Shown: in pieces, positions 3,093 through 22,961 of the stretch
Numbering within the stretch: the stretch's first letter is position 1
How the letters are laid out: each line of letters opens with the position of its first letter
Source: a virus
IMG/VR virus record: IMGVR_UViG_3300009076_000052
Span: 1 to 22,961 of that record
DNA: 22,961 nt
Strand: one strand, 5' to 3'
Program-made: the position numbers and the translations under genes
Notes under the pieces: generated by a model
What the model was told of the DNA's origin: nothing
Seen by the model: the letters and a program-made list of their open reading frames with translations, nothing else
Database searches by the model: none

Positions 3093-5189
3093 ATGACTAA
3101 TGCTATACACCAAGTAGCTGAGTACATAAGAAGTAACAGGTACGGTTCCAAAGGAAGGAACCATGCCGGTATCTCCTTGTTGAACAGACACCTTGAGTAT
3201 GGGGTAGACCACGAGGAACTAGTTGTGGCTGCAGTACAAGCAGCTCAATCAGTATTCCTTAGGTCCCGTAGGGCTAGCAACAAAGCATTCAAGCTTACTG
3301 CTACGTCTACCTCAATCGGGTTGGCTGTTGTGTCAAGGATTGGTATCGTGAATAGCACATACACTGAGTTGTTTTCTGTCGGTGATCTATTCATTGAAGC
3401 TTTCTTACAGCTCAAGTACATAGAGATAGAGCGTGAGTACGAGGGGTATCGTGCCCCATACGTAATATACTTAACAGAAAGATGGGAGGACTTAGGAGAT
3501 ATACCACCATGCTACGAAGGTTCTACCCTACTTGGTACTAGCTTCCGTAGATTCCCTAACATAGAGAAGCTAAGGAACCCTATAACCAAGAGGCCGTACA
3601 TCAAACGTATGACCTCTGACAGGGACTTTAGCCAATGCCTTGACCAACCCTTTGTCAAAGCGTTAGAGAAGCTACAGCAGGTACCATGGAGGCTTAACGT
3701 AGGGTTAGTGAAAGCCTTAAGGGATAACGTAACAAAGTTCATAGATATGGAAGACAAGTCTGACAAGGGCAGGTCTAAGCGTATCGAGATGAAGTTCATA
3801 CTCAACAAAGCTAGGGCTATAGGTGACAAGGATTTCTATCAGGCAGTTGAATGTGACTACCGTGGTAGGGTGTACTACACCGAACCTTTCCTTAACTTCC
3901 AAGGGTCTGACTTATCCAAGGGACTCTTTGAGTTCGCTAATGCTAAGCCAATGGATGACCGTGGGTACTATTGGCTATGTATCCACACCGCTTGTTCATA
4001 CAATCAATCGTACACAATACAGGAGCTTGACCAATTAAACTGGCTAACCGAAGACTACAAAATGAACTTGCAAGAAGAAAGTCTGGATACTATTTCAGTA
4101 GACAAAATGACCTTAAGGGACAGAGCACAGTGGACGATACAGAATCTACCAGCACTGATAGCGGATGCAAAGGACCTGAGGTTCAAGACGGAGGCAGAAA
4201 AACCAGTAACTCTGCTGGCCTGTTGCCTAGAGCTGCAAGGGTACTCCGAGGCGGAGGGTGAGTACTTATCAAGGTTACCTATACCAGTAGACGGGAGTAA
4301 CAATGGATGGCAACACCTAGCTGCTATGTCTAAGGACAGTCAAGCAGGGGAGTTAGTGTCTATCGTACCCCAGAAGATCCAGAAGGACTTCTATGTACAG
4401 GTAGCTAAGAGGTTGATTGATCGTATGCCTGAGTGGTTTGCTAAGCGAGACATACCCATGAAAGCTATCCGTAAAGGAATTGCTAAACGTGGGGCTATGA
4501 CTAGAGCATACTCTGCAGGTCAACGTAAGATAGCAGAGAACATGTACTACGATTGTAAGACTGAAGGGTACACTAAGAAGTATAAGATAAGCAAAGAAGA
4601 CTGCGACTTGCTCGCTAAGAATCTAATCCTTGCTATCAATGATACTTGTGTAGGCCCCCTAAAGACCATGAAGTTCCTACAGAAAGTAACGGACTTCATC
4701 ATAGGTAGTGGTGAGACTTGCCTCCAATGGACTACACCCTCAGGGTTCCCTGTGATGTATGAAGTATGGAAGCAGAAGAACATGACTATCCGTGGTACAA
4801 TACGTGGGCTAGGTCAGGTAGGGCACAGCATAAAGATACCTGTAACCACTAGCAGTGGTGACTTGATACCTTGCAGGAGATCTTTTGCTTCTGGGTGTTC
4901 ACCTAACTTCGTACACTCTATGGATGCTGCACACATGGCTAAGGTAATCGAGACATTCTCAGGGAACTTCGGGGCTATACACGACTCCTTCTCTACCCAT
5001 GCATGTGACGTAGATAAACTAGTAGAGCATACTAAGTGGCAGTTCGCTATGCTATACAACTGTGACAACTTCTTTAACAGGATAGAGTCGATGTTGATAG
5101 AGAACTTCAAAGGTTACAACGTAGCACAACCAGAGCTGGGAGACCTCAAGATAGAAGAGGTTGTTAGCTCAGACTATTTCTTTTCTTAA
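3093..5189 (+). CDS. T7-type single-subunit DNA-directed RNA polymerase (compact)
   Basis: A 698-residue phage RNA polymerase. The D-x-x-G-R motif is D255-Y-R-G-R259; motif A has D400 in V-D-G-S-N-N-G-W-Q-H; motif B has K465-R-G-A-M-T-R-A-Y473; motif C has D631 in A-I-H-D-S-F. D400 and D631 should bind the two catalytic metals. Upstream, L-Q-Q-V-P-W-R-L-N matches the family's conserved segment before the palm. The C-terminus S-D-Y-F-F-S resembles the aromatic foot (S-D-F-A-F-A) of T7 RNAP. At 883 aa, T7 RNAP has about 420 residues before D-x-x-G-R, whereas this one has 254, so the N-terminal promoter-binding region is much reduced. The ATG starts directly after the primase-helicase stop, with GGAG at 3084-3087. 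It probably transcribes the late virion operon; its promoters were not identified in the window. Confidence 0.96.
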   Translation: MTNAIHQVAEYIRSNRYGSKGRNHAGISLLNRHLEYGVDHEELVVAAVQAAQSVFLRSRRASNKAFKLTATSTSIGLAVVSRIGIVNSTYTELFSVGDLFIEAFLQLKYIEIEREYEGYRAPYVIYLTERWEDLGDIPPCYEGSTLLGTSFRRFPNIEKLRNPITKRPYIKRMTSDRDFSQCLDQPFVKALEKLQQVPWRLNVGLVKALRDNVTKFIDMEDKSDKGRSKRIEMKFILNKARAIGDKDFYQAVECDYRGRVYYTEPFLNFQGSDLSKGLFEFANAKPMDDRGYYWLCIHTACSYNQSYTIQELDQLNWLTEDYKMNLQEESLDTISVDKMTLRDRAQWTIQNLPALIADAKDLRFKTEAEKPVTLLACCLELQGYSEAEGEYLSRLPIPVDGSNNGWQHLAAMSKDSQAGELVSIVPQKIQKDFYVQVAKRLIDRMPEWFAKRDIPMKAIRKGIAKRGAMTRAYSAGQRKIAENMYYDCKTEGYTKKYKISKEDCDLLAKNLILAINDTCVGPLKTMKFLQKVTDFIIGSGETCLQWTTPSGFPVMYEVWKQKNMTIRGTIRGLGQVGHSIKIPVTTSSGDLIPCRRSFASGCSPNFVHSMDAAHMAKVIETFSGNFGAIHDSFSTHACDVDKLVEHTKWQFAMLYNCDNFFNRIESMLIENFKGYNVAQPELGDLKIEEVVSSDYFFS

Positions 5190-5203: not shown

Positions 5204-5428
5204 ATGAGTAACGATAAAGTAGTAACAATGCCCGGTGTAGTAAACACTAGTGCCCGAGTAATAACAAGTAATGAGCTGAAGGCTGAGTCTAATTTACTAG
5301 ATGACCTTCAGGCGTTGCTGGAAAAATACAACGGTAAAGTAACTAACCTATCAATGGTTGGTGCCCTTACCATCTATGCAAACCAAGTAATGCTTGGATC
5401 ACTATTAGGAGAAGACGATGAGCTTTGA
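5204..5428 (+). CDS. small hypothetical protein (74 aa)
   Basis: A 74-residue protein 14 nt after the RNA polymerase, with AAGGA at 5193-5197 spaced 6 nt from its ATG. Residues from about 25 to 70 read as two helices (L-L-D-D-L-Q-A-L-L-E-K-Y, then a more hydrophobic second one). No motif or family is recognised. It overlaps the MazG-like gene by 11 nt. Its place right after the RNA polymerase makes a transcription-related or nucleotide-pool role possible but unproven. Confidence 0.75.
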   Translation: MSNDKVVTMPGVVNTSARVITSNELKAESNLLDDLQALLEKYNGKVTNLSMVGALTIYANQVMLGSLLGEDDEL

Positions 5429-6252: not shown

Positions 6253-6280
6253 GAGGGGCCCTTACGGGTCCCTCTTTTTT
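6253..6280 (+). terminator. intrinsic terminator for the rightward replication operon
   Basis: A 9-bp GC-rich stem (GAGGGGCCC at 6253-6261 with GGGTCCCTC at 6266-6274, one G-T wobble) with loop TTAC is followed by TTTTTT at 6275-6280. It ends transcription from the + operon 4 nt before the stop codon of the converging gene. Confidence 0.88.
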
Positions 6281-6284
6281 ATTG

Positions 6285-9200
6285 TTATTGTTGTATTGGG
6301 GGTAAGAAGTCTAGCATGTCTACGTTAGCAGCATCATCCATCTGATACTGTAGTATCCTACTGTTAGTCCGTTTAACTTCAGCTTCAATACCCTTACGTC
6401 TACGGTTAGAATCTACAACAGCCTTGCTAATCTGACCTTGAATGTTATTGTAAAGCTCATCTTGTATAAACTGTTGAGCATCAAACAAAGTCTTGTACGT
6501 CCTGTACTGATTCAACTCTACACCGTCACGGCTAGGCTTACTCTGAAGGTCTTTAATGAACGACTCAGCTGCAGCCTTGCTTTTGTGTTCACCACTAAAG
6601 TTCTTACGTAAGGTGTCAACAACAAGGTCAGCAATGTCACCGTAGTCTTGCTCATCAATCATAGAGCTGCCAAACTTAGCAGACATATCACTGAAGTGCT
6701 TATACCCATCCTTGAGGTTCTCCTTTAGGCTAAGCTCTAGCCCTTCAAGCATCTTAGTATTTGTAACATTCTTGTAGAAGATCTGATTAATCTTACGCTC
6801 AACTGCTTCAAAAGAACCAAGGTCTGTTATGACAGCATCGAAGATCGGTAGGATATAAGGGTCACCACCTACTTCTCTACGTAGGGCATTCATACTTTGA
6901 TCAGAGAATAACTCAGCCATAGTAGTCCCGTCCATGCTTTGAGCAAGGCTTGGTAGTATCTGTCCAGCTGCAACAGCTCCCATTCTACCACCCCTTTCAG
7001 CAGTAACATCAAATACCTTTTGCTTTTCCTTAACACTTACCTGTGTTTTAAGTGTACCTCTCTTGGCTTCTAAGGCAGCAACTCTATCCATGTTACCTGA
7101 TTGCTTAGCCTTTTCTATAAGAACGTTAAGGTCTTTATCTTTAAACTCTCGACCACCTTTCTTTGTTCTAGCCTTAGCGGTTGTAGCTTTAGACTGCTTA
7201 CCTGTGTACTGATAGGTAGTGCCACCGAATGTAACAGTGCCACCCAAAGGGTTAGTTGTTTCTAAAGCAAGGCCATACAGTGCAGAAGCACCTACCATTC
7301 GTTTAGCTAGAGTAGAGAAGTTTACAAGATCAGAGCCAAGGGTTTCCCGAAGGGCTGCTTCACGTACATCATTCAATAATACAGCTGCTTTAGTTACACC
7401 ACCGAATCGAACAGAGGCTGCCCTTAGGTCACTGTCAGATACAACAGTATCATAGACAGACTCAACTAGGTTATGCATCTCCTGACCGTACGGGAAGGTC
7501 ATCAAAGGGCCTTTAAGGAATGTCTTCTCGTTGTCTTTTGCAAGAGCAAGAGTAATCAGTTCCATTACCATAGGTATCTCATCTTCAGTATACCCGTGTT
7601 CTTTCATAAAGGTTTTGTCAGATAACGTAAGACCTGTGTAGTTTCCTTCAAGCAAAGAAACCATACGTTCTCTTAGTGCATCACGTAACTTACCACCAAA
7701 CGCAGTACGGTTAGGTACATCATCGTAGATACCAAGAACTCTTTCTTCACCTTCAGCTCGAAGTACACCACCACGGTACATAGCTCCAACGTTACCAAGC
7801 ATAGCCTGCATAGTAATCAAACCATTAGAGTTACCGTCCACCTCAATCGCATTGACTGAACTGTGGAAAGACTTACCACTACGGACTGCTTGATCGTAAT
7901 CAGCAAGAGCCATCATGTAATCTAAGGTTTGTAAGGTATGCTTATGAGAATCCTTAGCATCAGATAGACTTTCAAACAAAGCTTTTAAGTCTGGGTCTGC
8001 ATTAACTAGTTGGATAATAGAAGTGTTGTTGATACCTTCGATACCTCGGATACCTTGGGCAGTTAAAGTAACTTTACTAAACCCAGATACACTTTCTTGA
8101 GGGTTAAGGTCACCAACTAGTTTAAGTAATTTATTACCTAAGCTAACTACAGCTCCGTATCTTGCAGACCTACGTACCATATTATCACGAGCTATCTTTA
8201 TCTGAGTTTCAGGTACAAAGTCACCACCGTTAAAGAACATAGCTGAGAAACCTCTTAGCAATGCACGTTCTTGAGTAGAGTTACTTCCCGGTTTAATCTG
8301 GTACTTAACCCCTGAACCTATAATACCACGCATAAGATGGTTGTTCATGTAGCTGTTGTTCTGTATGACGTTGAATCGTGTAGTACCTGATTGGATATTA
8401 AAGGTATGATAGAAAGGTTTACCTGTGTACTTAGAGGCCATCATGCCTACTTCTAAGTTCTTATTAGCGTTGCTATAAAACTCAGGCTTAAGTCTAGAGC
8501 CAACAACCTGAGGGTTGCGTGAGCTAGCATCAGCTACAAGATCAGGGTTAGCCCCAACCTCATTAAGAAAGTCCTTAGGTCTCGTAAAAGTAATCCTAAC
8601 TTCTTCTACCTTTTCCCTCTGCATTTTTAAATCAAAGATACGTTTAGTATTTTTATCCTTACTAGCAGGGTTTGTTACAATCATATCCTCTAGCTCTTCG
8701 ATCATAATATCTATACGTTCAATCTTAGCAGCTTGTTTAGAAGCAATAGAAAGTATCTTATCAATCCTTTGACTACCCATGTCTACTATGTTATGAGTAA
8801 AGTTGTTACCGCCTCTAACTGGGTCAGTGGCAAGAGCAGCGGATAGCAAGGACATTCCAAGCGTACCCCTTCTGCTGTCGATAACATTAGCTACTTGAGC
8901 AGAGTTAACCTTAGCTTCATTGACAGTCTTTACATCTTTGTTAGGGTTAGAGCCAGACCTACTGCGCACCAGCTGACCTTCATTAGTATACTCACCTGAT
9001 TCAGGCTTAATAAATAAGAAGTTTTTCTTTGGGTCTGGTAGGGTGTACCTTTGAACTTCGTCCTGAAGAATCTTACGGCCCATAGGAGTCAAGTGATACT
9101 GAGCTTCACCTCCAGCGCCTGTGGCTAAATCCTTAAACACCATACCGTTAGAGATAGCAGCATACTGTGCCATCATAACCTTACCAATCATCTCAAAGGT

Positions 9201-10313
9201 TTCAGGGGTAGTGTTACGGAAGTCTTCTACATACGAGTCAGTGTCTTCCCCCTTACGCTGAGATAAAGATCGTCTTAAGTTTTGGAACATATCTCTACCA
9301 AGACGAGCCATACTTACTTCACTCTTACCTTCAGCTGTTGGATCAAACGCCACTTCAGCTATACCTGCAACCTGTGTATCTCCTTGAGACCTTACAGCAT
9401 CCTGCTCAAGCAAGAAGTTCTCTGTAATCATAGACATCAAAGGGACCATAGTAGGTTCAACTATGTATGGTTGTTGGTTGGTCAGGGTGTCAGGGTTGTT
9501 AAGGTAACCCTCGGGGGTAAGGCTTACTTCCTCTGATACAAACATTGGGTTAGGTACAGAAAGCCCGCCTAATAGTTTACTGGATGTAAAGATAGAAGCT
9601 GGTGATAAGACTAAGCTTTCACCCTTCTTACCAGTCATCATTGGTTTATCTTCTGAAGCTTCCACTTTTCTTTTACTAAGAGACTCTAGCTCTGTTTCAA
9701 ACTCAGGAGTTCCTATGGCAGAGGGGACACTAGGTGTGTCTCTGACTGGAAAGTTAATCATATCCCTGCCAGCAGCAGCTTGAGTATAGCCATCAAGTCG
9801 GCTGTAAGTTACTTCGCCTACAGCTTCACGAAGGCCAGACAAGTCAGACGCAACCCCTAAGTGCTCCTGCATACTAGGTGTTCTCTCTGACTCTCTTTGT
9901 AATCGCTCTAAGTTATCTACTGGTTGAGCATTAGGATCAGTAAAAGCTTCAGGGCCTGTGGCCGCTTGTACAGTCGCATAAGCAGACTCAAGGCTTCCCG
10001 GGATAATACTACCAGCTTCTTCTTCTAATGCGTAGGAAGCAGCTAATGCTGTCTCCATTTGATCTAATGCACTCAAAGTTTCTACTGGCGTATCTACAGA
10101 TGCACCCTCAAGTACAGGGCCATCAATGTAACCTCCCTCTATGAGTAAACGTTCTTGCTCTTCAGGGCTTAAGGTTGGGGCTTCCTGCCCCTGTGCTTCA
10201 TCCTGTGATACTTGAGTGTCCCTAGCCAACTGCTCTGCTAGGTCTAATCGTTTAGCTTTAGCCTCAGCTTCAGACTCAAACCCCTGTCCTACTAGTGTTG
10301 GGTTAATAGCCAT
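6285..10313 (-). CDS. giant virion protein with a single-subunit RNA polymerase core (N4 vRNAP-like)
   Basis: A 1342-residue protein, the last gene of the virion operon. Its C-terminal half carries the single-subunit RNA polymerase motifs in order. A degenerate D/T-x-x-G-R element has R646 (S-G-T-T-R, with Thr in the Gly place). Motif A is V-D-G-N-S-N-G with D826; motif B is K-T-F-L-K-G-P-L-M-T-F-P-Y-G with K934 and Y942. Motif C is Q-S-M-D-G-T-T-M followed by P-I-F-D-A-V-I-T-D with D1159. A-to-B spacing (108) is close to that of the phage N4 virion polymerase; B-to-C (225) lies between T7 and N4. The first 600 or so residues are not recognised and may serve packaging or ejection. The ATG overlaps the upstream stop (TAATG), with AGGAG 10 nt before it. 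Packaging is inferred from the operon position. A decayed polymerase serving only as an ejection protein is an alternative, but the two metal aspartates, Lys and Tyr are intact. Confidence 0.82.
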   Translation of the reverse strand: MAINPTLVGQGFESEAEAKAKRLDLAEQLARDTQVSQDEAQGQEAPTLSPEEQERLLIEGGYIDGPVLEGASVDTPVETLSALDQMETALAASYALEEEAGSIIPGSLESAYATVQAATGPEAFTDPNAQPVDNLERLQRESERTPSMQEHLGVASDLSGLREAVGEVTYSRLDGYTQAAAGRDMINFPVRDTPSVPSAIGTPEFETELESLSKRKVEASEDKPMMTGKKGESLVLSPASIFTSSKLLGGLSVPNPMFVSEEVSLTPEGYLNNPDTLTNQQPYIVEPTMVPLMSMITENFLLEQDAVRSQGDTQVAGIAEVAFDPTAEGKSEVSMARLGRDMFQNLRRSLSQRKGEDTDSYVEDFRNTTPETFEMIGKVMMAQYAAISNGMVFKDLATGAGGEAQYHLTPMGRKILQDEVQRYTLPDPKKNFLFIKPESGEYTNEGQLVRSRSGSNPNKDVKTVNEAKVNSAQVANVIDSRRGTLGMSLLSAALATDPVRGGNNFTHNIVDMGSQRIDKILSIASKQAAKIERIDIMIEELEDMIVTNPASKDKNTKRIFDLKMQREKVEEVRITFTRPKDFLNEVGANPDLVADASSRNPQVVGSRLKPEFYSNANKNLEVGMMASKYTGKPFYHTFNIQSGTTRFNVIQNNSYMNNHLMRGIIGSGVKYQIKPGSNSTQERALLRGFSAMFFNGGDFVPETQIKIARDNMVRRSARYGAVVSLGNKLLKLVGDLNPQESVSGFSKVTLTAQGIRGIEGINNTSIIQLVNADPDLKALFESLSDAKDSHKHTLQTLDYMMALADYDQAVRSGKSFHSSVNAIEVDGNSNGLITMQAMLGNVGAMYRGGVLRAEGEERVLGIYDDVPNRTAFGGKLRDALRERMVSLLEGNYTGLTLSDKTFMKEHGYTEDEIPMVMELITLALAKDNEKTFLKGPLMTFPYGQEMHNLVESVYDTVVSDSDLRAASVRFGGVTKAAVLLNDVREAALRETLGSDLVNFSTLAKRMVGASALYGLALETTNPLGGTVTFGGTTYQYTGKQSKATTAKARTKKGGREFKDKDLNVLIEKAKQSGNMDRVAALEAKRGTLKTQVSVKEKQKVFDVTAERGGRMGAVAAGQILPSLAQSMDGTTMAELFSDQSMNALRREVGGDPYILPIFDAVITDLGSFEAVERKINQIFYKNVTNTKMLEGLELSLKENLKDGYKHFSDMSAKFGSSMIDEQDYGDIADLVVDTLRKNFSGEHKSKAAAESFIKDLQSKPSRDGVELNQYRTYKTLFDAQQFIQDELYNNIQGQISKAVVDSNRRRKGIEAEVKRTNSRILQYQMDDAANVDMLDFLPPIQQ

Positions 10314-13300
10314 TAATAATCATCTCCTGTTATCCATTGTGCTTCTACCATATTATTGTAGACGTGATGTTTAAAGGGAGCAAAGACTGGTACCAGACCT
10401 ACGCCTGACTTTACCGTAGCCCTTGAGTCTCCTTCAATTACACCATGCACGAGTTTATATACGTTCTCGAAGATACCGGAAGCCGGAGCTTCACCTGTAC
10501 CGAAGTTCCATACAGCTTCACCGATGGTCCTACTTCTGTCTTCGTATAGTGGGAATAGTAAGTTGTTACTTAGTACTCTTTCAGTTGTTCCTAAGATACC
10601 TGAAGAGTATAAAGCTCTTAAGTACTTTTCATTATCCTCTAAATACGGAGATGACTCACCGAACTTTATAAGGTCTTTAAGGTGTTGAGCTGCATAGCCA
10701 AGCATTAGCATAGACATGAGCGTTGCAAAGGTAGAGTATCTAAACCCTGGAGTAGAGTTCTTGATTGAATCCCACATCCTTGGTATATGATGTGCAGTAA
10801 ACTTAGATGTAAAGCCTTGGAACTGTGTGAACATAGCTAGGTGTGGGTCACTGTAGAACAGAGGTCTACCCATAGCATCTGGCAAAGGCACAGCTTCATT
10901 GATAAAGTTAAACAAACCATTATCAAACTGTCTTTCCCAAGCTGCCATAGTCTCTGGGCTAGTGTCCCCATTAGTAATCCTTAGTGATAAGTCTAACATT
11001 TTATCAACAGGGATACCCATCTTCTCTAGGTGTCTACGGGACTCTCTGACTTCATTAGTATCCACAGTACCCTGATTAATTATGTCAAGGTTTCTGATTA
11101 AGAAGTCATTAAAAAAAGAAGCTCTGACTGTACGTGTAGCATTAGTAATAGCATTCAAACCAATAACCTTAAAGAACGAGTCCATAAGAGATCGAGTCAT
11201 CTTGTTAGTTTCAGATACACCTACTAGCTGAGCCTGACCAGTCCTTGCAGGACCAAAGCCTACTCTTCTATTCAAACCACTAGGGTCGTCATACTGTACA
11301 TAACGTGGGTCTCTAGCTGCTTCCTGTTCACGAGACTTAATCTTAGTTTCAAAGTTACTACGTTGAGGGACTACTCTTGTAAGTCTACCAACTTCAGCAA
11401 AGTACTCAAACATCTCACGACCAAGGATAAGACCTAACGAACCTACGTTCTTATTAAGAGTCTTTATGTCAACACCTAGTGGTGTTAATGCAAACTCAAC
11501 AAGAGACATTGGAGCTGCTAGCCCTAGCATAGTTAAGGTAGCTGTTAAGGTTATAGCTTTCTGTGTACCTCTAAGTGCATCACTTTCGATACGCTTATAG
11601 TTACCAGAGTCAGCGTTAATAAGATCTCTAACACCCTTGGCAAGATCAGAAGCAGTTGCATTAGCCTCAGCTTCCCTTTCTGAACCTGCTTCAGCACCCT
11701 TGCTAAGTTCTGCATAAACCTTTTCCATCATAGATGTAAGAAGTTTACTATCAGAACCTACGAACTTAGTCATAGTCATGTAACGAGATGCAGACTTCAT
11801 GGCATTCTCAGTGTTCTCAAAGAGATTCTGCTCAAAGAACTCATCAAACTTAACGTTATCTGATATGTCTAGGGTTCTACGCTTGTGAGTCTTAGGGACT
11901 AGTCCACCTTTAGTTAAGTCAAAAGCTTCGTCTAAGGTATGTATCTCAGCATTATCTAACAAAGAGTTAGTTATCTCAGATGCAAACTCAATAGACAACC
12001 CTTTCTCTGAAACAAGAAGTTGTATAAACTTATCTTTGTTCTTAGAGATAGCACTCTTAAGGAACCCTTTACTTCTAAAGATGTGATCCTGAAGATCACC
12101 AATAGTGTACGGCTCCCCTGCTTGACGTTGCCTAGCAGTCACACCTTCGTACATAGATCTATCTACAGAGTAAAACTCTTGTAGTAGTTCTTTAATCTGA
12201 CTTGAGTTCTCTTGGAACTTAGGGTTAGCTAAGTTATCCCAATCAATAGCAGCAACTATTTGATCAGCTGTCATCCAAGTTGCATTAGTATCTTCGTTAG
12301 CTGTTATAGGTTTAACATGTGTGTTAAAGAAGCTATACATTAAGGTAGATAGTTCCTTGCGCATAGCACCAGAACCTTTTGCTTCTAACTTAAACTTAGA
12401 ATATAGATTTTCAACAGGTGTAAGCAAAGATTCAAAAGTTCTAAAGTTACCTACCTTATCACTATGGAAATCAACACCACCATGTACCTTCTTATCCCTA
12501 CCGCCCATCATGTCATACAGTTTTCTAAGAGTAGGGCTACGATCTAAGATGTCTTTGGTAAACAAAGTATCTCTTGCATCCCTTAGTAGAAAGCCTGCAT
12601 CTTTAAGGCCATCACCAAGGTTCTCGGTAACAGTTTTCCCGTCACTTTGTACTTGCCCTGCGTCAGCTCTCTCTGTAAAAGAAAGACCTTCACCCTCTGG
12701 TTTAATCTTACCCTCTGGTGCTTCAGTTTCAGTAGCCTCAGGGGCCTTAGAGGCCTTAGAGTCTTCCCATTCTTGTCGAATAACTTCGTCTAAGTCTGCA
12801 ACTCTACCATTAGCATCTCTGGCTTCTGCCTTGTAGCCTTCAGTGGCATCATCAAACATGCCATCATACTTAGCCATAGCAACAGATGCATCTTTCCATT
12901 GACCTGCTTCCCATACACCACCGGGTGTAGCAAAAGCAGAACCCATCATGCCTCCAGCAATAAGGGCATTAGTCATTCTATGCTGTAGCTCATCAAAGTC
13001 CCAAGTCTTTTCAGACCCAAGGACTGCTGCAGTGTACTGTGTAAGTTCCTGAAACATCTCAGTGCTGCCCTCAAAGGCTGCACCAGTAGTCAGTCTACCA
13101 GCAAGTCGTTTAACTAAGGCACCCTTCTGTAACTGTGTGTTAGCAAACTTAGCTGCATCGTCTGCATAGCTAGATATCTGCCTCTTAGTCATAGAAGCTA
13201 GTGCAACAGTAGCCTGTTCTTTACTAAGACCTCTGGCAGTAGCCGCAGCTTGTTGTTCTACAGGCAGTAAGGCAGCAGCTCTGGCTCTTTGAGGCCCTTG

Positions 13301-15016
13301 GGCTCTCATAACCATACGAACAGCTTCCTCTTTACCCTCTTTAGTGATAAACTGTGAAGGTCTAATGATACCCATAGCACCTTTGATACCAAATACGTCC
13401 AGTGCAGCAGCAATAGCGCCACCAGCGATAGCAATACCATAGCTTTTGTCGTCTTGCTCACCTTCCATCTCGTCTAGTATCATACCTGAGTACATAGCTA
13501 CGGGTATAGTAAGACTACCACCCATAGTTACCCCAGCAGATGCAATAGATGCAACAGTAACACCCATAAACGGCAGAGAAGTTGCTAAGTTGTTACCAAG
13601 AAACTCTCCAACCTGTCCAATATCAGTAAAGTCTACGTCTCTGTAGTCTAAACGGACCCCAGGGGACTCTGCTAGCTGACTCTTAGAGTATGCAATGCCA
13701 CCTAACAGGTAAGCTTCAGCATCATCGTAGCCTAGTATATCAGAACCCATGACAGCTACCTGTTTAAAGGAGTTACCTACCATAGTTACTGCAGAATCCC
13801 ATGACTGGGACATAGGGTGTATAGCTCTACCTTCCATATCGGATGCGTAGTTACGAAGAACTACACCAGAGAACAGTTCAGGGGCTCTAGCATACTCTCT
13901 TTCGTTGAGAGCTAGCTTCTTAGCTACATACTCACCACCTGAGTTCTCAAGACCTGAAGCTCTGATGATAGCAGCTGCTCTCTCTACCGTAGACAGTTTA
14001 GTGTCGGGGTCTTTACCTGCTCTAGCCGCTAGGCCATACAGGTAACGAGAGTAATCTTCATCACTCATCATCATGTCAGTCTTGCCAATAAACTTAGGCT
14101 TAGCTATACCAGATGATACTAAGAAGTTTTGAAAAGAGTTACCATCTTTGTCAACTAAGTCACCGATCTTTCGGCCATACCCAGCTTTCTTGTCGGTAGT
14201 CTTAGCGTTAGTGAATCCATACTCGTTTGCAAGACTAGCTACGTATTGTTTAGTAACTTGACCAGAGGCTTCACCCATCTGATACCCGCTTTGTCTAAGG
14301 AACTTCTCAACTTCCGCTAAGTCTATCCCTTCGAATCGGTAGCTTTGACCAGTCTCTTTATCACGGAAAGTATCACCATCAACCAGCTTGTACCCTGAGT
14401 CACCGATGTCATAGTCGGCTTTGGAAAAGGCAGCCTCAGGTGCTGCTCTCCTCTTTTCTGAATGAGCAGCTACAGCGTCTGATACTTTCTTCATTCGTCT
14501 GTGTACGCCACTATCAGTTTCTAATGAGTTGCGGTAATCTTTGTTATCAAGAAACTCTAAGGATGCTTGATTGTAGTTACCTTCATTAAGTAGTTTTATA
14601 AAATTGGGAGAATGTCCTAAGTCACCTCGGTACTCAGCTTGTATAAGCTCAGCCTGAAGTTCCTTTGGGTATGTCCCAAGATTAGGTATTCTTGATTGTG
14701 CTCTATCTACGTGGTGCTGGTATGCGGCTTCAAAGCCCTTCTCAATCCACTCACCTGTCTGACCTACACCTTGGGTAGTGATACCTTTAGTGTCGGTGTA
14801 AGGGGTAGCAACGTACCCCTCCTCTTCCACAACTCTCTGCTCAGCATACGTAAGAGGACGACCAATGTTCGCCTCTACTTGTGCTATAGCGTCTGATCCG
14901 TGGTAGACTTCCTTGTCCACCTTCATATCAACTGTAGGATTTAAGTCAGAACTTACATCGTCTATGTAGCCTTGCTCTATTAATTGCTCTTGTGTTAACT
15001 TAGTGTCGTCGTTCAT
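10313..15016 (-). CDS. giant internal virion/ejection protein with GH24 lysozyme and SNase-like domains (gp16-like)
   Basis: A 1567-residue protein in the place of the T7 gp16 ejection protein. Residues about 55-185 form a T4-lysozyme-type GH24 domain with E66, D75 and T81 at exactly the T4 lysozyme spacing (E11/D20/T26) plus the G-x-G after the Thr. Residues about 205-308 form a staphylococcal-nuclease-like domain: V-D-G-D215-T, R227, D232 and E235 in R-F-E-G-I-D-L-A-E, then G-Y-G-R282 and a D-G-N-S-F-Q-N-F-L-V end. Hydrophobic segments lie near 485-511, 525-551, 1155-1176 and 1425-1442. The C-terminus has R-P-L-F-Y-S-D-P-H and T-Q-F-Q-G-F-T, typical of large podovirus ejection proteins. The lysozyme should open peptidoglycan during DNA entry; the nuclease role is unknown. 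AGGAG at 15026-15030 is 9 nt from the ATG. Confidence 0.88.
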   Translation of the reverse strand: MNDDTKLTQEQLIEQGYIDDVSSDLNPTVDMKVDKEVYHGSDAIAQVEANIGRPLTYAEQRVVEEEGYVATPYTDTKGITTQGVGQTGEWIEKGFEAAYQHHVDRAQSRIPNLGTYPKELQAELIQAEYRGDLGHSPNFIKLLNEGNYNQASLEFLDNKDYRNSLETDSGVHRRMKKVSDAVAAHSEKRRAAPEAAFSKADYDIGDSGYKLVDGDTFRDKETGQSYRFEGIDLAEVEKFLRQSGYQMGEASGQVTKQYVASLANEYGFTNAKTTDKKAGYGRKIGDLVDKDGNSFQNFLVSSGIAKPKFIGKTDMMMSDEDYSRYLYGLAARAGKDPDTKLSTVERAAAIIRASGLENSGGEYVAKKLALNEREYARAPELFSGVVLRNYASDMEGRAIHPMSQSWDSAVTMVGNSFKQVAVMGSDILGYDDAEAYLLGGIAYSKSQLAESPGVRLDYRDVDFTDIGQVGEFLGNNLATSLPFMGVTVASIASAGVTMGGSLTIPVAMYSGMILDEMEGEQDDKSYGIAIAGGAIAAALDVFGIKGAMGIIRPSQFITKEGKEEAVRMVMRAQGPQRARAAALLPVEQQAAATARGLSKEQATVALASMTKRQISSYADDAAKFANTQLQKGALVKRLAGRLTTGAAFEGSTEMFQELTQYTAAVLGSEKTWDFDELQHRMTNALIAGGMMGSAFATPGGVWEAGQWKDASVAMAKYDGMFDDATEGYKAEARDANGRVADLDEVIRQEWEDSKASKAPEATETEAPEGKIKPEGEGLSFTERADAGQVQSDGKTVTENLGDGLKDAGFLLRDARDTLFTKDILDRSPTLRKLYDMMGGRDKKVHGGVDFHSDKVGNFRTFESLLTPVENLYSKFKLEAKGSGAMRKELSTLMYSFFNTHVKPITANEDTNATWMTADQIVAAIDWDNLANPKFQENSSQIKELLQEFYSVDRSMYEGVTARQRQAGEPYTIGDLQDHIFRSKGFLKSAISKNKDKFIQLLVSEKGLSIEFASEITNSLLDNAEIHTLDEAFDLTKGGLVPKTHKRRTLDISDNVKFDEFFEQNLFENTENAMKSASRYMTMTKFVGSDSKLLTSMMEKVYAELSKGAEAGSEREAEANATASDLAKGVRDLINADSGNYKRIESDALRGTQKAITLTATLTMLGLAAPMSLVEFALTPLGVDIKTLNKNVGSLGLILGREMFEYFAEVGRLTRVVPQRSNFETKIKSREQEAARDPRYVQYDDPSGLNRRVGFGPARTGQAQLVGVSETNKMTRSLMDSFFKVIGLNAITNATRTVRASFFNDFLIRNLDIINQGTVDTNEVRESRRHLEKMGIPVDKMLDLSLRITNGDTSPETMAAWERQFDNGLFNFINEAVPLPDAMGRPLFYSDPHLAMFTQFQGFTSKFTAHHIPRMWDSIKNSTPGFRYSTFATLMSMLMLGYAAQHLKDLIKFGESSPYLEDNEKYLRALYSSGILGTTERVLSNNLLFPLYEDRSRTIGEAVWNFGTGEAPASGIFENVYKLVHGVIEGDSRATVKSGVGLVPVFAPFKHHVYNNMVEAQWITGDDY

Positions 15017-15051: not shown

Positions 15052-17613
15052 TTACAGTTTTGGAACTATATCTTTTAATGAACCAGCATTAAACTTGCTA
15101 GATGTATTGCCTAGTGACATTACCCAAAGAAGTTGAGGTGATGCTGCTTCCTCATTACCTTTCTTAACAGAAGCGTCTGAGGCACCTAACCAGTGCTTTG
15201 TAAACGCAGTACCTTGAGCTGCTTCCTGTTCATTATAAAGTCTTTCTAAGTTAGACCACATAGCCGTTTTATTAATACGATTAGGGTCCATCTTATTATA
15301 ATCAGCAAAAGCTGACTTTAAGTTTTTAACTTTATTAGAAGCTTTACTAAAGACATTAATTCCAGTTTTATCTGTAGCGCCTTTAAGCTTAGGTATTGCT
15401 AAGAAACCATCAGATATTCTGTTTCGAGAATCTGATTTAATCTGTTGCATCTCTAAGAAACCTGCAAGTTGTTTAGAGCCTGCACTGCTTCTTCCATCAG
15501 CAATAGCAATAGCGTACTGCTCTATACCATTGTTCAACGCTAGTCTCATTTCAGGGGTATCGTAGTTAGTGTTAGCCGGTAACATGCTTGTAAACAAAGT
15601 AACACCGCCTTCAAGCTGTGAGGTAGTTAAGCTACCCTTTATACGAGCGTCAAGGGCCTTTTCGTCTTTACTTTCAAGACCTCTTCTTTGAGCAACGTTG
15701 CTGACTACGCTATCAATAGTGTTACTAAGGTTATCGGACACATACGAAGTTAATTCTTTTTGTATGTCTTGAGAAGTGTCACCCTTACCTAAAATATACT
15801 GACCATCAGTCATCTGCCTTAAAGCCGCAACAGATACTACACGGTTCTCTGGGGTTAACCCAAAGACTTCTGGGTTGTCAAGTGAAATAAGCTGACCGTT
15901 CTTAGAGAAAGAACCCGTAAGGTTTCTTTGATTTACGGTGTCGTATATCTCAGCAGTCTTAGAGAAATCAATTGACTGATCATCCATTAGTTTCTTCCGT
16001 GCAGCTATAACTTCCTTACCGTATATCTTTTCTAATTCAAAGTCTTGTTTCTTCTGAGCAGCTTCTTGCTTCCACTCATTCTCAAGGACTTGACCAGCAA
16101 AGGTTACACCATCGTAGCCTACAGCTCTTGAAGCTATGTAAGCAAAGAGAGTCCTACGGACCTTAGGGTCATCAAGCTGTTCTTTAAAGAAACCAGAGAC
16201 ACCGTTCCACACACGCTTAAGGAATGACTCCTCAGGTTCATCATCTTCCTTTTCACCAAGGTTTTCGATAACCTTATCAGCATCCTTCTTAAGAGTAGGT
16301 TCAATTGTTTTAACAACTGTTTCAGCTTCTTTAACTGTAATCTCTTTCTCAGCCTCAGCGTTAGCAGCCTCTTGCTCTACTAAATCCTCTTCACCGTCTT
16401 GATAGAAAGGGGAAAGGTTATTAGCAATCCTTTTCTCAGCATGTGCTTTAGCTTTGTCTATAATAGACTGAGGTGGCAACGAGCCTTCAGGTAAGTTCCT
16501 AAGAACCTCTATCTCTTCTGCAGTTAACCCCGGGATCATAGATGGTACAAGTACTTCACCATTCCCAAAGTTTACACCTATGCTTAACTCAGTTCTTAAA
16601 GAGTTATCATTGCCCTTAATAGGGCCAAGGAATCCTTTCGTTGACTTTGTAGTACCGTCAGGTCGAAGGAGGGAAGGGTCTACTACAGGTTCAACCACGG
16701 GGATATTAGATCCTTCTGGTTTAGGTACATTTGGCTCAAGGGTGAAAGGTTGTTCTTCAGTATACTCATCTACAGTATCATTAGTGAGAGATTGATAGTA
16801 ACCAATAGGGTCTCTCTCTAGAAGAGCTAAAGCCTTAGGGTCCGCCTCAATACGCTTTCTAACATCATCTCTATCAAAGTAGTCTCTAACTTCTACAGTA
16901 AGCTCTCTTTGACTTTCTTGATCTGGAGTGTCTGTAAAGTAGCCTGATGCTCTGTTAAATAAACCTCCGCCTAAAATAGCTTTAGACTTCATACCACCTT
17001 TAGTTGGAAGGCCTCCGCTAGCTAAGGGTTGAATAGCTCGATCGTAAAGGGCTCTTGTATTAACGACTCTAGTAGAGCCTTCTACGTCTGCGTCAAACTG
17101 AGACTGATCTTCCCCACGTACAGTAGGGGGTGCGTTTAACTCAACTTGATACTTCGGTACATCTGGGAGCCGATAAGGGCCGGAAGACTCAGGTACTACT
17201 GGTTCAGGTGCTTCAGGTAAACCTTGAGCAGATTCTCCTAACACTACCTGTTCAGGTGGACGTAGGACAAAGTTATCAGAGTTTGGAAGAGGAGCAGCTG
17301 TAGGTATTGTAGGCTGAGGTATGTTCATTTGCACAGGGGGTACAACACCGATGTTATCAAAAGACTCTGGTGTATACTGTTGGTTAAATGCTGTGTCTAC
17401 TGGCATTAGCTTAGATGGGTCCATATTTTGCTGGAATGCTAATTCCTGAGAGGTCTCTTGTAGCGGAATAGACTGCTGAGGTGCCATAGGTATCTGAACC
17501 TGAGGGATCTGCTGTTGTGTCATTTGAGGAACTTGGAATCTATTTACATCCTCCGCATCCATATCATCCACTAGGCCCCTAAGGAGCTTTGATAAATCTG
17601 TTATATTAGACAT
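15052..17613 (-). CDS. large internal virion protein (853 aa, gp15-like position)
   Basis: An 853-residue protein between the gp14-like and gp16-like genes, hence probably a component of the internal core or ejection apparatus. Residues 1-180 are Pro/Gln-rich low-complexity sequence. At about 334-410 is a module recognisable from many phage virion proteins: L-S-I-G-V-N-F, then V-P-S-M-I-P-G-L-T, then I-I-D-K-A-K-A-H-A-E-K-R-I and S-P-F. It recurs in podovirus structural proteins with no known function. A Glu/Lys-rich charged linker follows, then a long, mainly helical C-terminal region. No enzymatic motif is seen. AAAGGAG lies just before the ATG. The structural role is inferred from position and the module. 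Confidence 0.8.
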   Translation of the reverse strand: MSNITDLSKLLRGLVDDMDAEDVNRFQVPQMTQQQIPQVQIPMAPQQSIPLQETSQELAFQQNMDPSKLMPVDTAFNQQYTPESFDNIGVVPPVQMNIPQPTIPTAAPLPNSDNFVLRPPEQVVLGESAQGLPEAPEPVVPESSGPYRLPDVPKYQVELNAPPTVRGEDQSQFDADVEGSTRVVNTRALYDRAIQPLASGGLPTKGGMKSKAILGGGLFNRASGYFTDTPDQESQRELTVEVRDYFDRDDVRKRIEADPKALALLERDPIGYYQSLTNDTVDEYTEEQPFTLEPNVPKPEGSNIPVVEPVVDPSLLRPDGTTKSTKGFLGPIKGNDNSLRTELSIGVNFGNGEVLVPSMIPGLTAEEIEVLRNLPEGSLPPQSIIDKAKAHAEKRIANNLSPFYQDGEEDLVEQEAANAEAEKEITVKEAETVVKTIEPTLKKDADKVIENLGEKEDDEPEESFLKRVWNGVSGFFKEQLDDPKVRRTLFAYIASRAVGYDGVTFAGQVLENEWKQEAAQKKQDFELEKIYGKEVIAARKKLMDDQSIDFSKTAEIYDTVNQRNLTGSFSKNGQLISLDNPEVFGLTPENRVVSVAALRQMTDGQYILGKGDTSQDIQKELTSYVSDNLSNTIDSVVSNVAQRRGLESKDEKALDARIKGSLTTSQLEGGVTLFTSMLPANTNYDTPEMRLALNNGIEQYAIAIADGRSSAGSKQLAGFLEMQQIKSDSRNRISDGFLAIPKLKGATDKTGINVFSKASNKVKNLKSAFADYNKMDPNRINKTAMWSNLERLYNEQEAAQGTAFTKHWLGASDASVKKGNEEAASPQLLWVMSLGNTSSKFNAGSLKDIVPKL

Positions 17614-17624
17614 ATTAGTCTCCT

Positions 17625-18314
17625 TTAAATAAACCTACGAGGACCACCGCCACCAGATTGCTTCATTCGTTGTTGACGATTCAAAGCTGCTCTTTGGTAC
17701 GGACTAACTTGTTCTTGTCCTGAACCTTTAAGTGCAAGGCTTGGGCCTTGTTGTATTTGTGCTTGCGGCTGTGGTTTCATCAAGCCAATTGCACCTTGAG
17801 CTGCTATGGTTTTAGCAGTGTCACTTGTCAAAGCTTCTTTGCCTTTAGCCATAGCAGCATTAGTCATAGCACCTACCTTACTAGCACCTATTTTACTACC
17901 CATAGTACCTGTGTGTGCAATACCAGTGGAAGTGTTTATAGCTGCTCCGGGTAGTACTGATTGAATACCTACTGGTGCTGCCATAGAAGATGCTGCTGGC
18001 GCTGCCAGTGCTGTAGGTGCTGCCAGTGCTGTAGGTGCAGCCCCCATGCCTGCTACGCCTGCGCCTGATATACCTGTTGTCATTACGGGAGCTACTGCTC
18101 CTGTTGCTGCTCCTGCTGTACCAGCTCCTACTGCTCCTGCTGTACCAGCTCCAGCTCCTGCTGCACCACCTATACCCATCATCGGTGCTGCTATTGGCGC
18201 TAGTAGTCCAGCACCTAGGCCCATAAGAGCTCCTTTCTTTCTATCTTCTGGGTTAGCCAAAGCACCTAATGCTGCCCCACCTAACGCTAATGTTGCCATA
18301 GTTGCAAAACTCAT
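17625..18314 (-). CDS. Ala/Gly-rich hydrophobic virion protein (gp14-like position)
   Basis: A 229-residue protein whose first two thirds are Ala/Gly/Met-rich with glycine-zipper-like spacing (A-L-G-G-A-A-L-G-A-L near the N-terminus; G-L-G-A-G-L-L at about 32-38). A tandem P-T-A-L-A-A duplication is seen. The C-terminus is Gln/Arg-rich and hydrophilic. T7 gp14 (196 aa) is a similarly placed ejection protein that inserts into the outer membrane, and this composition fits that role. There is no detailed motif to prove homology. The ATG overlaps the cupin gene stop by 4 nt (ATGA), with AGGAG upstream. Confidence 0.75.
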   Translation of the reverse strand: MSFATMATLALGGAALGALANPEDRKKGALMGLGAGLLAPIAAPMMGIGGAAGAGAGTAGAVGAGTAGAATGAVAPVMTTGISGAGVAGMGAAPTALAAPTALAAPAASSMAAPVGIQSVLPGAAINTSTGIAHTGTMGSKIGASKVGAMTNAAMAKGKEALTSDTAKTIAAQGAIGLMKPQPQAQIQQGPSLALKGSGQEQVSPYQRAALNRQQRMKQSGGGGPRRFI

Positions 18315-20082: not shown

Positions 20083-20472
20083 TTACGGTTTAGTTGGAAA
20101 CGAGACCTGAGACAATGCAGTTGCATCTACTGAGTTAGCAGGTAGATCCCTTAAGGCTTGTCTATATACAGCCCACTCTGTTTTCTTCTCATCAGACAAA
20201 GGGCTATCAGGCATCTGAGTCCAATCGCTCATCATAAGGTAGGACTCTCTCATCCCTCGTACAGCTCTGTCTAAGGTAGCTTTAGCTTCTGAGGGACTAG
20301 TGGTACCCTCAAGGAAGACACCGCCTATAAAGTACTTATGAGAGGCCTCAGGGGTACCTACGGTATAGCTCTCAGTACCTGAGTGATTATACTCAATGTT
20401 TTCTTCGTTACAAATTAAAGTCTTTTTAATAAGACCTGTATCCGTATCATATACAACGTAGTTAGTACTCAT
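20083..20472 (-). CDS. tail fibre assembly protein, Phage_tail_APC-like
   Basis: A 129-residue protein. The C-terminal half has R-G-M-R-E-S-Y-L-M-M-S-D-W-T, P-D-S-P-L, E-W-A-V-Y-R-Q-A-L-R-D-L-P, the strongly conserved pattern of the phage tail assembly chaperone family (Phage_tail_APC). The N-terminal half is a small beta domain ending in the Y-F-I-G-G-V-F segment. Such proteins usually sit directly after a tail fibre gene, as here: its ATG overlaps the fibre stop by 4 nt (ATGA). The likely role is to help fold, trim or attach the fibre. Confidence 0.85.
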   Translation of the reverse strand: MSTNYVVYDTDTGLIKKTLICNEENIEYNHSGTESYTVGTPEASHKYFIGGVFLEGTTSPSEAKATLDRAVRGMRESYLMMSDWTQMPDSPLSDEKKTEWAVYRQALRDLPANSVDATALSQVSFPTKP

Positions 20473-22961
20473 TTCTTAGTCTCCAGTATATCTAACGTAG
20501 CATCAATAGCGTTAACACCCCAAGCAGTTCCGCTTTCTAATACTTTAAAAATTAAAGAAGTTTCTATTCGAGTAGTCCCTGAAGGAGGGGTAGACAAGAA
20601 ATCAATAATGTGAGCATTAGTGTTACGATGAGTCGCTGTTACATTAAAGTTAACTTCTTGGTTAGTCGATAGTAATGTGGTTACATTGTAGTACTTAACC
20701 TGAACTGTCACATCAAGCTTACAAAAGATATTAAACATAGAAACCGAGTTGTTATTATAGGCAGGTTGAAACCAAAGTTTACCTCTAATCCTAGTAGGTG
20801 CCCCGGAGTTATTTACATTCAACGTTACAGGCATAATTTCAGTGTTATCATCCTCTTCATAGTAAGTATTAATAGCCGTCTTAGCAGAAGAAGGTACAGT
20901 AACAGCTTGACCTGCAATAGTTAAAGTATCTACAGATCCATTCTTAATGTAAGCGGTATCCATGTACACACCTGCAGGAACTGACTCACCCCCTACAGTA
21001 GTTGGGGTAGTAGTAACAACAAAAGGATTAGGTGTTGCTAGCTCATTCCAAATGTAACCACCTTGAGAAGCACCTGAAGACCTAAAATACTTTTTGGTTA
21101 TAGTCGCCCAGTATATCTGACCTAAAGACCCTACTGTGCTGCTAGTGGGGCTGTACGGCCCTGTAAGATCAGGGCTAGGTGCTAGGTAAAACCTATCAGC
21201 TGCTATGGCAAACTCAGAGCCAGTAGTAGCATCATTGTATAAACCAAAGCCAGCTACCTTACCAGCCACATCAGTCTTAACTGTAAACTGAGATGTGAGT
21301 CCATTTATAGTAGAAGCTTGAGTTTGTATGCTAGCTGTGTTGTCCCCAACGGTAGTGTTTAAAGTAGATATTTTAGTAGCTGAAGCAGCGACTCCATCAT
21401 CAGAGTCATTAACTAATGTTTCTACCACATCCAAAGCACTGGAAACAGCACTAAACCCTGTAGTAGGGTTATTAATAGTGGATTCTAAAGCACTAACTTT
21501 TGTAGCTGTAGCGTTAACTCCGTCATCTGTATCATTAACTAAAGTCTCTACAACATCTAAAGCATTAGCTGTAGCAGCAACTCCTGTAGTAGCATTATTA
21601 ACTGTAGATTCTAAAGCACTGATCTTACTAGCTGAAGCAGCTACTCCGTCATCTGAATCATTAACTAAAGTCTCTACAACATCTAAAGCATTAGATGTAG
21701 CTGCAACTCCTGTAGTAGCATTATTGACTGTAGCCTCTAAAGAATTAAGTCTATTTGCAGAAACAGTAAGACCTGTGGTTGAGTCGTCAATTGCATTTTC
21801 AACAGCACTTAAATTGGTTACTGTAGCTGCAAGCCCGGTAGTAGGGTTATTTACAGTAGACTCTAATACACTAATCTTACTTGCAGAAGCTGAAACACCT
21901 GTAGAGGTGTTATTAACTAAAGTTTCTACAGAGTCTAATGCACTTGAAGTAGCTGTAACACCTGTGGTAGCATTGTTAACTGTAGATTCTAAAGCACTAA
22001 TTTTATTAGCTGAAGCAGTAACTCCAGTGCCTGTAGCATTAACTAAAGTTTCTACTGTATCTAAAGCATTAGATGTAGCAGCAACACCAGTAGTAGCATT
22101 ATTAACCGTAGACTCTAGTGTGCTTACTTTATTATTCAAGGCGGTAACACCAGTACTTGAGTTATTAACTAAGGTTTCTACAGAGTCTAATGCATTTGAA
22201 GTAGCTGTAACACCTGTGGTAGGGTCGTCAACTGTAGATTCTAAAGCACTAATTTTATTAGCTGAAGCAGTAACTCCAGTGCCTGTAGCATTAACTAAAG
22301 TTTCTACTGTATCTAATGCTTGCGAAGTAGCTGCAACACCAGTAGTAGCATCGTTAACTGTAGATTCTAAAGCGCTAATCTTACTTGCAGAAGCTGAAAC
22401 ACCAGTGTTTGAGTTGTTGACTAAAGTCTCCACAACATCTAAAGCATTTGATGTAGCTGTAACTCCTGTAGTAGCATTGTTAACTGTAGATTCTAAAGCA
22501 CTAATCTTAGCAGCTGAAGCAGTAACGCCAGTGCCTGAAGCATTAACTAGTGTTTCTACTGTATCTAATGCTTGTGAGGTAGCAGTAACACCCGTAGCAG
22601 CATCATTGACTGTAGATTCTAAAGCACTAATTTTATTAGCTGAAGCAGTAACACCAGTAGAAGCGTTATTAACTAAAGTTTCTACAGAGTCTAATGCTTG
22701 CGAAGTAGCAACAACACCTGTAGTAGCATCATTGACTGTAGAGTTAAGGGCTGTAATAGCCTGAGCTGCAGCAGAAGAACTACCTGCAGTTACTGTATTA
22801 ATTGCAGTAATATCTGCAGAGTTATCTGCTACCAAAGCACCTAAGCTAGAGTAGTCACCTAACACATCCCAAAAAGAAGTGTTCGTAGGTAAATTACCCG
22901 TAGTAGCTGCAGTCGCAATGTAAAGTTTATCAAGGTAAACAACTTGATCGTTAATAGCGTA
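20469..22961 (-). CDS. tail fibre / host-recognition protein with tandem repeats, 5' partial
   Basis: The frame is open to the window edge, so the gene extends beyond 22961; at least 830 residues are visible. The GTG at 22865 is an internal valine. The first visible residues (A-I-N-D-Q-V-V-Y, L-Y-I-A, T-G-N-L-P-T, F-W-D-V) resemble a small carbohydrate-binding (CBM5/12-like) fold. Eleven 42-residue repeats follow (21366-22751), each two 21-residue halves of pattern L-E-x-x-V-N-x-x-x-T-G-V, then Q-F-T-V-K-T-D, V-A-G-F-G-L-Y and S-E-F-A-I-A-A-D-R-F. That last block is the DUF1983 signature of lambda gpJ-type host-specificity proteins. After it come A-Y-I-K-N-G-S and a beta-rich C-terminus probably contacting the host. 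A trimeric fibre is likely. Confidence 0.87.
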   Translation of the reverse strand, partial: YAINDQVVYLDKLYIATAATTGNLPTNTSFWDVLGDYSSLGALVADNSADITAINTVTAGSSSAAAQAITALNSTVNDATTGVVATSQALDSVETLVNNASTGVTASANKISALESTVNDAATGVTATSQALDTVETLVNASGTGVTASAAKISALESTVNNATTGVTATSNALDVVETLVNNSNTGVSASASKISALESTVNDATTGVAATSQALDTVETLVNATGTGVTASANKISALESTVDDPTTGVTATSNALDSVETLVNNSSTGVTALNNKVSTLESTVNNATTGVAATSNALDTVETLVNATGTGVTASANKISALESTVNNATTGVTATSSALDSVETLVNNTSTGVSASASKISVLESTVNNPTTGLAATVTNLSAVENAIDDSTTGLTVSANRLNSLEATVNNATTGVAATSNALDVVETLVNDSDDGVAASASKISALESTVNNATTGVAATANALDVVETLVNDTDDGVNATATKVSALESTINNPTTGFSAVSSALDVVETLVNDSDDGVAASATKISTLNTTVGDNTASIQTQASTINGLTSQFTVKTDVAGKVAGFGLYNDATTGSEFAIAADRFYLAPSPDLTGPYSPTSSTVGSLGQIYWATITKKYFRSSGASQGGYIWNELATPNPFVVTTTPTTVGGESVPAGVYMDTAYIKNGSVDTLTIAGQAVTVPSSAKTAINTYYEEDDNTEIMPVTLNVNNSGAPTRIRGKLWFQPAYNNNSVSMFNIFCKLDVTVQVKYYNVTTLLSTNQEVNFNVTATHRNTNAHIIDFLSTPPSGTTRIETSLIFKVLESGTAWGVNAIDATLDILETKK
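21366..22751 (-). repeat. eleven tandem 126-bp (42-aa) repeats in the tail fibre gene
   Basis: Eleven units of exactly 42 residues are in register with no indels. Each unit is itself a pair of related 21-residue halves: A-L-E-S-T-V-N-N-A-T-T-G-V with its tail, then V-E-T-L-V-N with N-x-S-T-G-V and its tail. Units near the middle (about 21724-21850) are the most diverged, with N-L-S-A-V-E-N-A-I-D-D. Twenty-one residues equal three heptads, so a triple-stranded coiled-coil or beta-helical shaft is plausible. Confidence 0.93.
21978..22316. repeat. 87-bp exact direct repeat (21978-22064 and 22230-22316)
   Basis: Two 87-bp stretches are identical base for base and lie 252 bp apart, exactly two 126-bp repeat units. 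Neighbouring units differ at many synonymous positions, so this pair probably reflects recent duplication or gene conversion within the fibre shaft. It is a ready substrate for deletion or expansion in steps of whole units. Confidence 0.9.

Follow-up and report, generated by a model that had tools for sequence, protein, structure and literature searches.

A compact, putatively virion-packaged single-subunit RNA polymerase encoded by an uncultured marine phage

Introduction

The virion RNA polymerase (vRNAP) of phage N4 is one of three ejection proteins and consists of an N-terminal domain (NTD), an RNA polymerase (RNAP) domain and an autoinhibiting C-terminal domain (CTD) (PMC12633501). Virion single-subunit RNAPs (ssRNAPs) of the N4 kind have been called unique to the Schitoviridae, in which they are giants of ~3500 residues (PMC12633501, PMC7650795). 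A survey of IMG/VR for vRNAPs kept only proteins of at least 2,500 amino acids (aa) with the motif ExDGxxxG, and its reference vRNAPs were 2,842-3,820 aa long (PMC10654107). Here we describe a 1342-aa protein encoded at positions 6285-10313 (minus strand) of a 22,961-base stretch, hereafter the window, of a single uncultured virus record (IMGVR_UViG_3300009076_000052) from a marine virus of bacteria. Its open reading frame (ORF) contains an ssRNAP core, as judged from sequence profiles, residue conservation and predicted fold. We consider it very probable that the protein is a compact virion-type polymerase, which would be packaged, ejected together with proteins of 1567, 853 and 229 aa, and used to transcribe the early genes. 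Because the family lies below the 2,500-aa cut, it would be dropped by the published survey despite its motif.

Among isolates with common synteny, roseophage CRP-7 (58 kb) is the nearest; related contigs reach 59.8 kb. CRP-7 has been described with its T7-like RNAP only (PMC6918029). A preliminary description of the window, made from its letters, spoke of a T7-like phage, which is a loose label. The virus also encodes a T7-like RNAP of its own, which that description left unmentioned.

Results

The preliminary description held that the 1342-aa protein hides an N4-type ssRNAP core, and three kinds of comparison bear this out far beyond chance. As a single sequence the protein matched PHROG 2206 (virion RNA polymerase) at E=2.2e-7, a profile also matched by 7 of 28 family members, and it matched phrog_414 weakly. 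Used alone, it gave no match by tblastn against annotated phages, nor in PDB sequences, Pfam or NCBIfam, so the ordinary search route misses it. With hhalign, individual sequences of N4 or of the phages' own RNAPs gave weak alignments; a profile built from 12 vRNAP cores of Schitoviridae in public records remedied this. Against this profile, the family aligned over residues 629-1201 (6711-8429, minus strand), corresponding to residues 408-992 of the N4 mini-vRNAP (probability 98.5, E=2e-15, score 149). The preliminary description had named residues 550-1342; detectable homology to N4 spans 629-1201. In the phage regions tested with the family HMM in a reverse search, the only significant matches were the giant vRNAPs of Pseudoalteromonas phage pYD6-A and Vibrio phages VBP32 and D517.

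A predicted structure points the same way. The AlphaFold2 model of residues 230-1342 (pLDDT 78, pTM 0.74) retrieved T7 RNAP (E=3e-12, TM 0.54 by target), the N4 mini-vRNAP (9e-12) and mitochondrial RNAPs from the PDB by Foldseek. Among the BFVD viral models, the vRNAP of Vibrio phage phi50-12 ranked first (6e-13). When the core of a relative with 22% identity was modeled separately, its best matches were again solely ssRNAPs.

Relatives were collected by scanning viral contigs with the neighboring RNAP and the 1567-aa protein, which gave ~95 loci; at most of these, a homolog 20-50% identical to the 1342-aa protein is present. Scanning viral contigs directly with the 1342-aa protein recovered near-identical copies only, and a single profile scan of IMG/VR found the family at 77 loci, a count that includes overlapping and near-identical records. 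No prophage copy of the family was found in 84,980 genomes and none in the plasmids searched; the distant relatives L059 and L084 had no match when searched against phages.

Conservation was assessed by aligning 34 family members (20-50% identity) with the syntenic CRP-7 protein, 35 proteins in total. The preliminary description had placed motif A at D826 and motif C at D1159, and both residues are present in 35/35. R646, offered there only as a candidate, proved to be just as invariant (35/35), as did Y942, and K934 is found in 34/35, with Arg in CRP-7 as the sole exception. By hhalign, R646, D826, K934, Y942 and D1159 fall on R424, D559, K670, Y678 and D951 of the N4 mini-vRNAP, and the T7 counterpart of R646 is R425. 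In order along the protein (all on the minus strand), these residues lie in an invariant equivalent of the T/DxxGR element (Q641 x4 R646 ... R662 ... G666-S667; 8313-8393), for which the N4 counterpart reads 'R..M..GK-NPQSxKLxR'; in motif A (E824-V-D826-G-N-S-N-G; 7821-7844); in motif B (KTFL-K934-GPLMTFP-Y942-G-Q; 7482-7526); and in the motif C region (QSM-D1128 ... PIF-D1159-AVITDLGS; 6813-6950). D1128 of 'QSMD' is also invariant, and G943 and Q944 are among the near-invariant columns. The motif A of the window protein is of the form ExDGxxxG, the diagnostic motif of the IMG/VR survey (PMC10654107), which occurs in 30/35 aligned proteins. The proposed closeness of the motif A to motif B spacing to that of N4 also holds (108 versus 111 residues). 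K930, named earlier as part of motif B along with K934 and Y942, was dropped, as its column is variable (D, K, S, A and others). Outside the core, the N-terminal ~229 residues (9627-10313) are weakly conserved, and 183 residues follow D1159.

We considered whether a T7-like RNAP could have been recruited into the virion independently, in which case the protein would not be a relative of the N4 vRNAP. A tree of five motif blocks separates three clades, namely the 1342-aa family (support 96), the N4-type vRNAPs (89) and the T7-like RNAPs (100), with the family outside the N4 vRNAP clade and not nested in it; since the tree is unrooted and short, it shows distinctness and does not settle the order of sisters. 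Mean block identities are 0.18 to each of the other two groups and give no separation, and in the structure search T7 RNAP and the N4 vRNAP come out about equal. These observations leave room for independent recruitment. Against it, the family profile scores 149 with N4 vRNAPs versus 47 with the T7-like RNAPs of the same phages, where control families (the 1567-aa and 853-aa proteins) score 21-24. The T7-like family PF00940, with a cut-off of 22, has no match in the window protein, and the best relative shown reaches 16.4 bits. Additionally, the prevalence of ExDGxxxG, the N4-like operon position and the absence of cysteine speak for kinship with N4. We conclude from the profile comparison that the 1342-aa protein is nearer to the N4 vRNAP than to T7 RNAP, and regard independent recruitment as unlikely.

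The genomic setting bears on whether the polymerase is packaged. On its left the window carries a replication module read rightward, comprising an exonuclease, a homing-endonuclease-like gene, primase/helicase, the T7-like RNAP and MazG. A late operon read leftward occupies the right part and meets this module head-on at ~6.25 kb; the window does not reach the early region. A hairpin with a T-run that resembles an intrinsic terminator lies between the converging operons (6253-6274, plus strand). The 1342-aa ORF, with an ATG start, occupies exactly 6285-10313 as the final gene of the late, or virion, operon, and vRNAP genes of N4-like phages sit at the same spot, at the end of the late operon and facing the replication genes. 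Its start codon is overlapped by one base by the stop codon of the 1567-aa gene (10313-15016, minus strand), which encodes an internal virion protein of the ejection type. Residues ~37-193 of that protein (14438-14908, minus strand) form a lysozyme-type domain with a homolog in the internal virion protein/endolysin of Alteromonas phage H4/4. Giant vRNAPs of Vibrio Schitoviridae, that of VBP32 among them, carry a homologous domain at their extreme N-terminus. Further upstream in the operon are genes for two putative ejection proteins of 853 aa (15052-17613, minus strand) and 229 aa (17625-18314, minus strand), the latter assigned by its position, which is that of N4 gp52 and T7 gp14. The 1342-, 1567-, 853- and 229-aa proteins contain no cysteine, versus 15 in the 698-aa T7-like RNAP, which is encoded in the early/replication direction (3093-5189, plus strand; PF00940 E=2e-56, phrog_414 E=6e-108). 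Cysteine is likewise absent from 34 of the 35 aligned polymerase-family proteins and from N4 gp50.

An alternative is that the protein is a genuine ssRNAP made in the infected cell, serving as a late or middle polymerase that is not packaged, with its place in the late operon incidental. The evidence for packaging is indirect, and the presence of a second RNAP would allow a division of labor after infection. Nevertheless, the gene is encoded with late ejection-type proteins and overlaps one of them, it has the position of the N4 vRNAP gene, and its strict lack of cysteine is common to the ejection-type neighbors and not to the other RNAP. Moreover, a late gene could serve an early role only if its product were packaged. 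We therefore favor packaging and ejection of the polymerase, for which operon position, neighbors and lack of cysteine make a circumstantial case, and judge an unpackaged enzyme to be improbable.

It is less likely still that the protein is a dead polymerase fold kept for a structural role in ejection. Large helical proteins do occur among ejection proteins, a fold alone does not prove catalysis, and position 930, equivalent to N4 666 and T7 R627, has drifted. However, 34 proteins down to 20% identity all retain the two metal-binding aspartates together with R646, K934 and Y942, and this retention of catalytic residues speaks against a dead enzyme, in which their loss would be expected. A last reading, that the motifs arose by chance in an ordinary ejection protein that is no polymerase, draws on the lack of annotation and the empty Pfam, NCBIfam and PDB sequence searches. 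It is already refuted by the predicted fold and the conservation, as well as by the profile evidence, and we give it next to no weight.

Since N4 vRNAP reads hairpins with a 3-nt loop on the template strand (PMC4496689), the window, the stretch from CRP-7 and 31 contigs of the family were scanned for candidate promoters, defined as 3-nt loops closed by GC-rich stems with a minimum length of 6 bp (5 bp in the case of N4). The scan recovers N4 P1, P2 and P3, and the P1 hairpin sequence is confirmed in PMC12633501. Eight contigs from five lineages have exactly one such intergenic hairpin each, and none was found elsewhere in the scanned set. All eight are early-region hairpins with the orientation of early transcription, and 41-189 nt separate each from the early ORF that follows. 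The template loop is GAA (the N4 P1 loop) or AAA, as in CCAGCC-GAA-GGCTGG and GGAGCC-AAA-GGCTCC, and stems vary between lineages while pairing is kept. Nine contigs have five hairpins in their 17.9 kb of intergenic sequence versus 1.15 expected, and 3 of 1000 shuffles reach five, although the contigs are related and hence not independent. Early-region hairpins could also be intrinsic terminators. The listed ones are followed by no T-run, but the one at 43151 of contig G005 has a T-run, and the terminator reading may hold for some. We take the N4-P1-like hairpins as no more than suggestive of promoters in these relatives.

A repeated noncoding element was also seen in the relatives. As TATAAGGTAC it occurs in the early region, with an opposite-strand copy near a 155-aa ORF; as CTATAAGGTAC(T/C) it occurs in tandem before the early genes and once reversed near the conserved 155-aa ORF. 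Copies of the latter form lie at 12338 and 12364 (plus) and 20847 (minus) of G003 (L191) and at 5285 and 5366 (plus) and 12907 (minus) of G011 (L214), and it is also present in G001, G002, G005, G006, G012 and G032. The element may be the promoter of the T7-like RNAP, and its reverse copy is perhaps an origin primer. Separately, the early genes of G001 (the contig of L053) are preceded by a long noncoding stretch with five tandem units at 73-nt spacing that contain the palindrome AGACATGTCT (oriented 10054-10350).

Other features of the window were also noted. In the 1567-aa protein, residues ~195-310, after the lysozyme domain, resemble by eye a staphylococcal-nuclease-type domain (KLVDGDTFRDKETGQSYRFEGID...). 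The 853-aa protein has a mosaic boundary: its first 137 residues are 98.5% identical in relatives L087-L090, whereas the remainder is only 40% identical. A 798-aa tail protein (20469-22865) consists mostly of short repeats (TGVTASANKISALESTVNNATTGV...), and a 478-aa antisense ORF within its gene (21328-22764) is probably a by-product of those repeats.

Discussion

Several observations weigh against a packaged, N4-related polymerase. The structural matches have moderate TM-scores (0.4-0.54) and high global rmsd. The N4-specific Pfam domains PF21894, PF21769, PF21867 and PF21624 (plug) match N4 and neither the window protein nor 30 family members. The 1567-aa protein has no detectable homology to N4-type NTDs over its length, with the lysozyme domain alone common to some Vibrio phages. 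Hairpins were not found in G004, G005, G010 and G011, all of which include the early junction, and some early-region hairpins look like terminators, as at G005 43151. Finally, the presence of the 1342-aa protein in virions and its enzymatic activity rest on inference.

Beyond a polymerase core in an ejection operon, we infer the following course of infection. The 1342-aa polymerase, product of the last ejection-protein gene, would be packed in the head and ejected into the cell with the lysozyme-bearing 1567-aa protein and the 853- and 229-aa proteins. There it would transcribe the early part of the incoming DNA, with hairpins in the template strand as its probable promoters, by a two-metal mechanism in which D826 and D1159 would bind the metals and R646, K934 and Y942 would handle the nucleotide. 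Early transcripts would include, or lead to, the 698-aa T7-like RNAP, which would then drive later genes.

If this is correct, a 1342-residue version on its own gene and without the autoinhibiting CTD would show what a minimal ejectable polymerase looks like, and the relation between polymerase and ejection proteins could be tested one gene at a time. Such an enzyme would also account for the way in which phages with a T7-like RNAP could express it without host RNAP, and would supply a possible intermediate between T7-like and N4-like transcription programs. This marine virus and dozens of uncultured relatives may start transcription with an enzyme carried in. More broadly, the family may be a third ssRNAP clade, hitherto unrecognized, a minimal virion polymerase apart from its membrane/lysozyme partner and without the N4 CTD, widespread in uncultured marine podophages of ~40-60 kb with a T7-like RNAP, whose early and later transcription may need no host RNAP; we see the case for this wider proposal as evenly balanced.

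Among other known systems, crAss-like phages and Thermus phage P23-45 resemble this virus in having a packaged polymerase for early transcription, and P23-45 also has a second, non-virion RNAP; their virion RNAPs are two-barrel (DPBB) enzymes of unrelated fold (PMC10770324). Large proteins of StenR_269 and Zobellviridae have been proposed as vRNAPs from size, helices and absence of cysteine only (PMC10747016), and ORF30 of Pseudoalteromonas phage vB_PunP_Y3 has been published as an N4-like vRNAP (PMC11654794). All are proposed vRNAPs of podophages with genomes smaller than those of N4-like phages. The vB_PunP_Y3 (Poorviridae) protein, at 24147-34412 of L257 (OR779980), is free of cysteine; we examined it as a possible described relative and rejected it, as ExDGxxxG is missing from it and neither of the two vRNAP profile HMMs matches it. 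As far as the open-licence literature goes, the 1342-aa family had not been recognized as a compact virion-type polymerase, although an earlier description may exist.

In CRP-7 (MK613349), the primase, the T7-like RNAP and two small genes are followed by a converging large cysteine-free gene, gp33, and then by the gene for a 1368-aa homolog of the 1567-aa protein. Gp33 is annotated merely as hypothetical and has motif-like R, D, R, Y, D and D residues at family-like spacing; its homology to the 1342-aa family did not reach significance by profile, the sequence being too divergent. With the T7-like RNAPs of the Autographiviridae, the 1342-aa protein has in common the palm and fingers fold and motifs A, B and C, and differs from them in falling under the PF00940 cut-off, in its place in the virion operon and in its lack of cysteine.

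The closest comparison is with N4. Like N4 gp50, the 1342-aa protein has the ssRNAP catalytic residues in register, an ExDGxxxG motif A and no cysteine, and is encoded by the last late-operon gene converging on replication genes, in a phage with a second, non-virion ssRNAP. That second enzyme is a one-chain T7-like RNAP here and the heterodimeric RNAPII in N4. Unlike gp50, the window protein has 1342 rather than ~3500 residues, lacks the ~1400-residue CTD, has no detectable N4-specific Pfam domains, belongs to a separate clade, and has its lysozyme partner on a gene of its own. In these viruses, the NTD and RNAP part of N4 gp50 would be split over two genes, without the autoinhibitory CTD.

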